A stretch of DNA of 64,000 nucleotides from Pinibacter soli (GTDB lineage: Bacteria; Bacteroidota; Bacteroidia; Chitinophagales; Chitinophagaceae). This document shows positions 8,244-9,336 of this stretch, piece after piece; within the stretch, counting starts at the first letter, position 1, and every line of letters begins with the position of its first letter. The position numbers and the translations under genes were made by a program. Where the stretch lies: the NCBI RefSeq assembly GCF_029961145.1, contig NZ_JASBRG010000001.1, positions 682,001 through 746,000 on the forward strand. The letters run 5' to 3'. The notes beneath the pieces were generated by a model. That model was given only the letters and a program-made list of their open reading frames with translations, was not told where the DNA came from and did not search any database.

Positions 8244-8717
8244 CTATTTAGTCTTATACACCTGTACATTTCTGCCAAAGCTTTCATCAAGAGAGATAAA
8301 TGTTTCTGTTCTTTCTATGCCTTTAATTTTTTGAAGATCGTCGTGAAGAATTTGTCGAAGCTCTGTAATGTCTTTACAGACTACTTCACCAAACATAGAG
8401 TAATTACCCGTCGTGTAATTCAAACGAACAATCTGTGGGATCTTACGAAGTTCTTCTGCAACGATGTCGTACAAAGAACTTTTTTCAAGATACACACCAA
8501 TGAATGCAATCACATCATAACCTAACTGTTTCAAATCAACATTCAATTTTGTACCTTTAACTACGCCAGCTTCCTGTAATTTTTTGATGCGCACGTGTAT
8601 TGTACCTGCGGACACAAAAAACTTTTTTCCCAAGTCTGCGTATGATATTTCCGCGTTTTCCATCATCTCCTGGATTATCTGATAATCCAGTTTATCAAGA
8701 TTTAATTTAGTTGCCAT
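8244..8717 (-). CDS. Lrp/AsnC family transcriptional regulator
   Basis: 157 residues. N-terminal AsnC-type winged helix-turn-helix (about 1-60: LDKLDYQIIQEMMENAEISY, then LGKKFFVSAGTIHVRIKKL as recognition helix region) and a C-terminal RAM/effector domain (about 70-150) with the TGNYSMFGEVVCKD ligand-pocket segment. Proteins of this family bind DNA as octamers or dimers and respond to amino acids. No neighbour suggests a specific regulon. A perfect TATATTTG box lies 36 bp upstream of the ATG. Stands alone next to the tRNA-like pair. Confidence 0.93.
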   Translation of the reverse strand: MATKLNLDKLDYQIIQEMMENAEISYADLGKKFFVSAGTIHVRIKKLQEAGVVKGTKLNVDLKQLGYDVIAFIGVYLEKSSLYDIVAEELRKIPQIVRLNYTTGNYSMFGEVVCKDITELRQILHDDLQKIKGIERTETFISLDESFGRNVQVYKTK

Positions 8718-8760: not shown

Positions 8761-8856
8761 ATTACATTTTCTCTAAAGTTTCAAATTTTTTATTAAATAT
8801 TATACATCAAATCGAGGTTTTTATTTAATATTGCATCAGAAAGTTCTTTAACACAC

Positions 8857-8977
8857 TGTGGGATGATGAAATTTTCGGCAGACATGCCCTCTTGTCTCGG
8901 GGGTGAGGAAAACAAGACAAATCAACGCTTTCAGCTAGACTAATTGCCTCGTGGAGGTTCGAGTCCTTCTCCTACAG
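8857..8977 (+). tRNA. Class II tRNA-like gene, copy 1 (Leu-like body, apparent GUC anticodon)
   Basis: 121 nt. Acceptor TGTGGGA (8857-8863) pairs 7/7 with TCCTACA (8970-8976), counting one G-U, with G8977 as discriminator. D arm ATG/CAT has the Leu-type loop AAATTTTCGGCAGA. Anticodon stem CCCTC/GGGGG (8887-8891/8899-8903) closes the 7-nt loop TTGTCTC, so the triplet at 34-36 is GTC (8894-8896) with U37, which is very unusual in working tRNAs. Variable-arm stem GAGG/CCTC (8905-8908/8947-8950) holds a 38-nt loop, far above the normal size. T arm GGAGG-TTCGAGT-CCTTC. No encoded CCA. The body says Leu class while the anticodon says Asp, so identity is unresolved. It could be a functional odd tRNA, a tRNA-derived RNA, or a pseudogene. 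The fold is kept by compensatory changes relative to copy 2. Confidence 0.65.
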
Positions 8978-9059
8978 CTCATTAAAATATCAAAGAAACT
9001 ATTCCAATATTTGAATTTTATTTAAAAATTGCAAATCTATTGTATTCTTTGGTAAATAT

Positions 9060-9231
9060 TGTGGGGTGATGAAATTTTTGGCAGACATACCCTCTTGTCT
9101 CGGGGGTGGGGAAGCACGGATAAACATAGCATAGAGCCGACGATACCACGCGTATGGCCGACCGGGGTTGACCACTAAAACTTTGTGCTACAGCTAACGT
9201 CCCCGTGGAGGTTCGAGTCCTCCCCCTACAG
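9060..9231 (+). tRNA. Class II tRNA-like gene, copy 2 (variable-arm loop of 89 nt)
   Basis: 172 nt. Acceptor TGTGGGG (9060-9066) pairs with CCCTACA (9224-9230); relative to copy 1 the last pair changed from A-U to G-C on both sides. D arm ATG/CAT with loop AAATTTTTGGCAGA, anticodon stem CCCTC/GGGGG and loop TTGTCTC identical to copy 1 (triplet GTC at 9097-9099). Variable stem GGGG/CCCC (9108-9111/9201-9204) replaces GAGG/CCTC, again a double change. T arm GGAGG-TTCGAGT-CCTCC replaces the G-U pair of copy 1 with G-C. The variable loop is 89 nt and contains AGCAC/GTGCT (9113-9117/9185-9189) as a possible continuation of the stem. It lies 82 bp after copy 1. A TTCTTT word sits 7-9 nt upstream of both copies. 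Confidence 0.65.
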
Positions 9232-9283
9232 CTGCTTTTTCTCATGTTTAATTTAGGACCGCTTTGTGTCTACAAAGTAGTAG

Positions 9284-9309
9284 CCCTTCCCAAACGGAAG
9301 GGTTTTTTT
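9284..9309 (+). terminator. Rho-independent terminator after the tRNA-like pair
   Basis: CCCTTCC (9284-9290), loop CAAAC, GGAAGGG (9296-9302), then seven T. It lies 52 bp after the end of copy 2 and is the natural end of a transcript covering both tRNA-like units. Confidence 0.85.
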
Positions 9310-9336
9310 ATTGCAGAAATTTAGAAGTTAGAAATT

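Follow-up and report, generated by a model that had tools for sequence, protein, structure and literature searches.

An apparently undescribed family of tRNA-like RNAs in Bacteroidota, linked to the amidotransferase GatCAB and proposed as a non-decoding carrier

In the two-step pathway to asparagine on tRNA-Asn, a non-discriminating AspRS acts first and GatCAB second (PMC4206432). According to the same source, bacterial GatCAB recognises U1-A72, and 68 of 547 surveyed genera encode AsnRS, GlnRS and GatCAB together, the role of GatCAB being unclear in many of them. In the identity rules collected in PMC9976931, the five strong aspartate determinants are G73, G34, U35, C36 and C38, to which G10 is added in bacteria, and amidotransferases depend on U1-A72. 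The same text gives G1-C72 as strictly conserved in bacterial tRNA-Asp, lists A73 for bacterial Leu identity, and for bacterial Ser identity names, among others, G73, G2-C71 and a large variable region. In E. coli, asnA is activated by AsnC, an effect that is weaker when asparagine is present, and the gene of the regulator is divergent from this target (PMC8707732).

We analysed a stretch of 64 kb of Pinibacter soli DNA (hereafter the window), in which the first-pass annotation had described two tandem tRNA-like genes. The features of the locus are as follows.

8244..8717, minus strand: divergent Lrp/AsnC-family regulator of 157 aa (Pfam domains; best NCBIfam model AsnC)
8826-8833, plus strand: probable promoter -7 element TAATATTG, assigned by eye
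8843-8854, plus strand: GTTCTT leader GTTCTTTAACAC, assigned by eye
8857..8978, plus strand: tRNA-like RNA copy 1, read from the sequence, with G73 at 8977 and C74 at 8978; 118.5 bits to covariance model R1
8892..8898, plus strand: anticodon loop TTGTCTC of copy 1, positions 32-38 (34-36 = GUC, U37, C38)
8905..8950, plus strand: variable arm of copy 1, GAGG...CCTC enclosing 38 nt, with covarying helices 4 and 5
9060..9232, plus strand: tRNA-like RNA copy 2, read from the sequence, with G73 at 9231 and C74 at 9232; 118.2 bits to R1
9095..9101, plus strand: anticodon loop TTGTCTC of copy 2, read from the sequence
9108..9204, plus strand: variable arm of copy 2, GGGG...CCCC enclosing 89 nt, with covarying helices 4 and 5
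9282..9311, plus strand: terminator-like hairpin (9282-9304) and T run, 3' of copy 2; 1 found, 0.6 expected in shuffles

When checked on the sequence, both copies form the 7/5 acceptor/T-arm cloverleaf that had been drawn for them, with a Leu-like 3-bp D arm, and the three base pairs said to differ on both sides between the copies agree with the sequence. The loop TTGTCTC, with its GUC anticodon and U37, was likewise confirmed in both copies, and U37 turned out to be typical of the whole family described below. The variable arm of copy 2 contains an extra inner domain with an inner stem and GGGGTTGACCAC; this stem was placed by alignment and by folding, the latter no better than for shuffled sequences. 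The -7 assignment of TAATATTG was made by comparison with the promoter consensus. Words similar to the promoter and leader elements recur 5' of other family copies. The boxA-like GTTCTT leader was considered as a special trait and rejected: GTTCTT also precedes several ordinary tRNAs of the P. soli genome, and C74 is likewise encoded in the ordinary tRNAs listed, so that neither trait is special in this genome.

Standard tools pass over the two genes. ARAGORN found no tRNA in the 64-kb window, and Rfam 15 gave no match at gathering score on the window and no tRNA match up to E 10. A search of the P. soli genome with RF00005 returned 46 matches, neither copy among them; conversely, the matches to R1 that rank next after the two copies in this genome score at most 39.1 bits and have ordinary tRNA length. 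The folding energy of the copies was unremarkable (z 0.82 and -0.43), as was that of their variable arms (z 1.50 and 0.37), and since these scores carry no signal folding energy was dropped as evidence. As a separate observation on the same genome, a tight cluster outside the window (G000:C11:2087280-2088811) consists of two good tRNA matches at 73.1 bits surrounded by seven to eight that are weak or degenerate, five of these scoring 30.9-46.5 bits and one 19.3. Some P. soli tRNA sequences, which may belong to this cluster, resemble altered copies of tRNA-Lys.

Homologues were found in related genomes, and they keep the cloverleaf; loss of the fold among relatives had been named in advance as a reason to abandon the idea. 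BLAST with the window pair as query gave matches in 34 of 59 genomes, that is, in 33 of 58 besides P. soli itself. The covariance model R1 was then built from 28 aligned copies taken from the BLAST loci, with the inner variable arm trimmed; because its members have the GUCUC loop, it may favour such loops. At E<=1e-20, R1 found the RNA in 65 of 149 genomes of the order, spread over 10 families, and at E<=1e-13 in 31 of 296 genomes of the phylum, including other orders and another class, P. soli being counted both times. In these searches 25 (order) or 12 (phylum) candidates per genome were scored, and the absence of the RNA from a genome is to be read on that basis. A DNA pattern search matched at least 120 stretches; among the 80 loci in the matches listed, the carriers include Chitinophaga, Niabella, Terrimonas, Saprospiraceae, Dyadobacter, Spirosoma, Cyclobacterium, Algoriphagus, Belliella, Fulvivirga, Marivirga and an Ignavibacteriales genome. 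Since the pattern forces GTCTC, loop counts from its loci were not used as evidence. Up to four copies stand in tandem, and their variable arms then differ from one copy to the next (L098 (G156:C4) and G110:C55, order family f18). ARAGORN called none of the 131 genome copies in loci L085-L184, and these genes are therefore easily missed in annotation.

The same DNA pattern matched 114 stretches of IMG/VR, with 80 loci among the matches listed. From these, 63 viral copies (46 distinct) could be parsed; the other 17 had a T arm off the pattern or lay at the end of the stretch. A terminase, a portal protein and ThyX are encoded beside the RNA in L279, so at least this sequence is genuine phage; L296 has a DNA polymerase and a helicase, L324 an RNA ligase and a SAM lyase, and three proteins of L302 had no PHROG. 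The S-adenosylmethionine lyase family gene of L324 (11112-11855) lies shortly downstream of the phage copy at L324:10333. Five of the 63 viral copies were called tRNA-Asp(gtc) by ARAGORN, all of them 96-nt forms without the inner domain; such compact phage forms (L275, L288, L309, L314, L327) may be annotated as tRNA-Asp(gtc). Among named phages and plasmids, two viral members had no match in INPHARED and copy 2 had none in PLSDB. A GACCAC-type motif is present in the inner arm of 43 of the 46 distinct viral copies; in 35 of these 43 a palindrome of 6-12 nt begins no more than 22 nt after it, as compared to 27% in shuffled sequences (the viral sequences being related to each other). At the tips of phage variable arms (L255-L334) palindromes such as GCGCGC, GTGCAC and GCTAGCTAGC are seen. 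Comparable palindromes are present at retroviral kissing-loop dimerisation sites, and those of the viral inner arm suggest that loop-loop dimers may form.

The fold was judged by covariation rather than by folding energy. In the MAFFT alignment of the first 28 sequences, pairing is seen in 99.3% of the 812 cells, with two-sided changes at 13 of the 29 pairs. A larger set comprises 95 distinct sequences from BLAST or R1 loci, among them one ordinary tRNA (53 bits); here 98.6% of the 2738 cells are paired, and both partners have changed in 25 of the 29 pairs. The alignment of this larger set was fitted to R1 and is therefore biased toward structure. None of 500 shuffles reached the covariation values of the 95 sequences, and sliding the partners by 1-3 columns lowered pairing to 50-55%. 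The matches across genomes given above place the tRNA-like family far beyond chance, and the covariation indicates that the fold is under selection, as had been proposed from the two copies alone. Pairing in the 7-bp acceptor stem and in the 5-bp T stem reaches at least 99% of cells, so the stems are indeed not the 8/4 or 9/3 of allo-tRNAs; helix 2, the Leu-type 3-bp D stem, pairs in 99.3% of cells of the 95 sequences. An eighth acceptor pair, -1:73, which would give 8/5 stems like those of tRNA-Sec, is possible in most members, not in all: position -1 is C or T in all of the first 31 members, and A in 10 of 125 and 6 of 94 in later sets. In Dyadobacter, Spirosoma and some others (L141, L144, L160, L163, L164) the T stem apparently has one bulged T or C on its 5' side.

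The variable-arm inserts of 38 and 89 nt have the sizes first given, but they are not loose loops, since within them lie a second helix of 3 bp with strong covariation and a conserved internal loop, GGAUAAA/CUAA, to which another domain is often added. Similarly, of the Leu-type assignment the 3-bp D arm and the class II body stand, whereas Leu identity does not, G73 being present in 94 of 94 members in place of the A73 of bacterial Leu. The covariation also rules out decayed Leu tRNA pseudogenes. The Leu-like D arm and the failure of ARAGORN and RF00005 to find the copies might have been taken as signs of decay; against the phylum-wide conservation and the invariant ends, the chance of this is negligible. 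We found no published description of such an RNA in the literature searched, outside which most subscription papers and bioRxiv lie, so that the family is apparently undescribed, in agreement with the initial impression that it fits no described class.

Base counts were made on 94 distinct members, from BLAST or R1 loci only and with the ordinary tRNA removed. U1, G2, C71, A72, G73 and C74 are present in all 94, as are U35, C36 and C38, and G34 is present in 93; the anticodon is thus GUC in 93 of 94 and, with C36 in every member, the GUU of tRNA-Asn is absent. In a wider set of 125 genome members, aligned by script, all but 2 have U-A at 1-72. The 45 distinct viral members (one cut copy dropped) have U1-A72 in 43 and A1-U72 in 2, and all have G2-C71 and G73-C74. 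For comparison, the ordinary tRNA-Asp of P. soli has G1-C72 and the loop CUGUCAC, and its tRNA-Asn and tRNA-Gln have U1-A72. The loop is less constrained elsewhere: position 32 is U or C, position 33 is U in 70 members, C in 15, A in 6 and G in 3, and position 37 is U in 87, C in 4, G in 3 and never A. G10 is present in 10 of 94 and C11 in 12, C11-G24 being thus in a minority. With the Asp determinants and U1-A72 kept and the decoding features relaxed or lost, the RNA resembles an Asp acceptor that GatCAB could amidate.

That the RNA decodes had been considered unlikely from the window, and the counts at positions 33 and 37 agree. A working tRNA for Asp codons, inserting Asp or another residue, would account for the GUC anticodon, for U33 in the 70 members and for the 29 of 63 viral copies that have another tRNA gene in the same stretch; with a base other than U at position 33 in 24 of 94, a pyrimidine at 37 in 91 of 94 and an ordinary tRNA-Asp(GUC) in the P. 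soli genome, we consider it highly improbable. Charging by SerRS, as with allo-tRNAs, with GUC incidental or recoding, is very unlikely as well. G73, G2-C71 and the large variable region are among the determinants of bacterial Ser identity, and 8/4 allo-tRNAs often have GUC, but A72 replaces C72 in all 94 members, C11 is rare (12 of 94), and neither the invariance of G34, U35, C36 and C38 nor the link to GatB described below would be explained.

The invariant bases include the five aspartate determinants together with U1-A72. For this reason, the occurrence of GatB (searched alone of GatCAB) was tested in 80 genomes, 42 with the RNA (at least 80 bits in the order or phylum R1 lists) and 38 without it. 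This set was fixed before any GatB result, by reduction from 109 candidates (57 with and 52 without the RNA), and genomes whose hits were ambiguous, such as G035, G046, G106, G140 and G171, were excluded. All 42 genomes with the RNA have GatB, as compared to 15 of 38 without it. AsnRS is present in all 80 genomes and GlnRS is over cut-off in 56. Among these 56, GatB occurs in 34 of 34 genomes with the RNA and in 0 of 22 without it (Fisher p 5e-16, the genomes being related); the test of amidotransferase and asparagine genes had been set out beforehand, and the stratification by GlnRS was chosen after the GatB result. In the 24 genomes without GlnRS, GatB is present in 8 of 8 with the RNA and in 15 of 16 without it, as expected if GatCAB is then needed for Gln-tRNA. 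Within six tabulated families, all 32 genomes with GlnRS agree, GatB going with the RNA (permutation p 6e-5), and in one genus G053 has both RNA and GatB and G118 neither. Thus, where GatCAB has no evident role in translation, GlnRS and AsnRS both being present, it occurs in this sample only together with the RNA. This strong link of the tRNA-like RNA to GatCAB is the best-supported step of our analysis. Since the RNA divides the sampled Bacteroidota genomes with GlnRS completely by GatB, the question of what GatCAB does in such bacteria becomes directly testable.

The main rival to a carrier is that the RNA, together with AspRS and GatCAB, serves transamidation as a scaffold or regulator, for instance by promoting amidation of ordinary tRNA-Asn, and yields no Asn itself. 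It would give the same association with GatB. In fact, tRNA-Asn can serve as a scaffold in transamidosomes, and the ordinary tRNA-Asn of P. soli shares U1-A72 with the RNA. A pure scaffold, however, would not need G73-C74 and the full set of Asp determinants, which are kept in 94 of 94 members (G34 in 93), and we regard this reading as unlikely.

Asparagine synthetase genes were examined in the same 80 genomes. Canonical AsnB (NF006949) was found in 0 of 42 genomes with the RNA as compared to 10 of 38 without it, nine over cut-off and one below; the 10 carriers span three families (f23, f24 and f25), and the difference may be a lineage effect. AsnA showed no link to the RNA (4 of 42 vs. 5 of 38). 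AsnB-like genes (TIGR01536) are over cut-off in 74 of 80 genomes and in 37 of 42 with the RNA; the six misses were read from best E-values, and five of the six genomes have the RNA. The distribution of synthetases weakly favours an asparagine role, most carriers of the RNA having other candidate synthetases. A lack of asparagine synthetase as the driver was rejected, given the TIGR01536 genes in 74 of 80 genomes and the absence of a link with AsnA; only canonical AsnB fits it.

The gene content around the RNA was studied in 101 loci, namely 20 regions of up to 20 kb, the 80 pattern loci listed and the window (a genome may recur). Clustering of their open reading frames singled out an AsnC-type gene, found in 67 loci and far ahead of the clusters that come next, with 12. 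In the 100 loci where the RNA was located by script, the AsnC-type gene is present in 66, in 65 of them divergent and within 700 nt; the median AsnC-RNA spacing over all copies is about 155. It is absent from 34 of the 100 loci, 28 of which have at least 900 nt upstream, and no neighbour gene cluster occurs in more than three of these 28. Many loci without it belong to Saprospiraceae or to genera of the Cyclobacteriaceae. The regulator of the window matches the Lrp/AsnC Pfam domains; it scores 160.2 bits against the AsnC model NF008384, below the cut-off of 227, and has no other NCBIfam hit at E<=1e-20. An AsnC operator was looked for in the spacers and rejected: words of the AAATATT type are enriched there, but are confounded by promoter elements.

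Two further explanations bear on this neighbourhood. The RNA might be a donor of Asn or Asp to a non-ribosomal transferase that modifies lipid, cell wall or a peptide. The kept acceptor end and elbow and the relaxed decoding bases would suit such a role, and staphylococcal tRNA-Gly is a non-translating aminoacyl donor for the cell wall; on the other hand, there is no conserved transferase neighbour, the clusters after AsnC reaching only 12 of 101 loci, and the RNA is also found in phages, for which no use of a pathway of this kind is apparent, which makes a donor role distinctly unlikely. A small regulatory RNA pairing its highly conserved GUCUC loop with GAGAC of mRNAs is extremely improbable: in the mRNAs examined, the asnC messages, GAGAC is not enriched (20 of 66, mid-range among permuted pentamers). 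An antisense action on asnC mRNA, tried as a candidate, was rejected on the same count.

Of the several meanings first left open, the data favour a non-decoding RNA of the Asp/Asn amidation pathway. We regard it as probable, with much room for doubt, that the RNA is a carrier which is aspartylated by AspRS, amidated to Asn by GatCAB and controlled by AsnC. The tRNA elbow bases and the 7/5 cloverleaf are kept, so ordinary tRNA maturation and CCA completion are likely. AspRS would probably charge the RNA with Asp, considering that G34, U35, C36, C38 and G73 are kept; from the identity rules, this is likely, provided that AspRS tolerates the long variable arm. U1-A72, which is kept here and missing from true tRNA-Asp (G1-C72), makes it probable that GatCAB would turn this Asp into Asn. 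If an RNA that bears Asn and a GUC anticodon took part in decoding, the reading of Asp codons would be corrupted, and we infer that the relaxed U33, the absence of A37 and the large variable arm would exclude it from the ribosome. Asn would presumably then be released from the RNA. The AsnC-type regulator would probably control the RNA, by analogy with E. coli, where asnC is placed divergently to the asparagine synthetase gene asnA. The most likely purpose would be a tRNA-dependent supply of asparagine, with the RNA as its dedicated carrier; AspRS could then contribute even if it is of the discriminating type. Against a carrier speak the G10 of only 10 in 94 members and the absence of G1-C72, the combination of G73 and a long variable arm, which is also a SerRS feature, the AsnB-like genes of most genomes, the 34 loci that lack the AsnC-type gene and the few members without U1-A72. 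In its favour, it explains most simply why certain bases are invariant while decoding features are lost, and why the RNA goes with an AsnC neighbour and with GatB; the tRNA-Asp(gtc) calls by ARAGORN for the compact phage form and the distribution of canonical AsnB also point this way. We put forward only tentatively, at less than an even chance, the full picture of an RNA-based asparagine synthase, a carrier of chimeric identity on which Asn would be produced for the cell, with an Asp anticodon for AspRS, an Asn-type first pair for GatCAB and feedback of asparagine through the AsnC-type regulator, in phages too. If true, the RNA would be of a new kind, and the retention of GatCAB by many bacteria with both GlnRS and AsnRS would be accounted for. 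A tRNA would have left decoding to become a metabolic carrier with its own regulator, of which phages carry copies.

The RNA was compared with known systems. tRNA-Sec has a UCA anticodon and 8/5 stems, as opposed to GUC in 93 of 94 members here. With staphylococcal non-translating tRNA-Gly the RNA would share the diversion from decoding, but the amino acid, the fold changes and the cell-wall pathway are other ones. From tRNA-Leu it has the 3-bp D stem, the D-loop sequence and the class II arm, being near the tRNA-Leu(UAG) of P. soli itself, and it differs in G73 instead of A73, in the anticodon and in the variable arm. It shares G34, U35, C36, C38, G73 and G2-C71 with tRNA-Asp(GUC), and departs from it in U1-A72 instead of G1-C72, the Leu-like body, the long variable arm and U37, with no A37. 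Allo-tRNAs (PMC7609411) are likewise class II with G73, and GUC is frequent in their 8/4 forms; the 7/5 stems, the invariant Asp determinants, the GatCAB link and the conserved inner arm set the RNA apart from both 8/4 and 9/3 forms. As in E. coli asnC-asnA (PMC8707732), an AsnC-family gene is divergent from a target that would be tied to Asn synthesis, although the neighbour here is an RNA gene and not a synthetase. With the tRNA-Asn of the two-step pathway (PMC4206432) it has in common U1-A72, G73, G34-U35, the association with GatCAB and, as proposed, Asn made on the RNA; it differs in GUC instead of GUU, the class II body, the huge variable arm and the loss of a fixed U33 and purine 37, and a discriminating AspRS would suffice. 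Because it fails a tested feature of each, we filed the RNA under none of tRNA-Leu, tRNA-Asp, tRNA-Asn, allo-tRNA or tRNA-Sec; judged by its bases, it would work like a substrate of the transamidation pathway.
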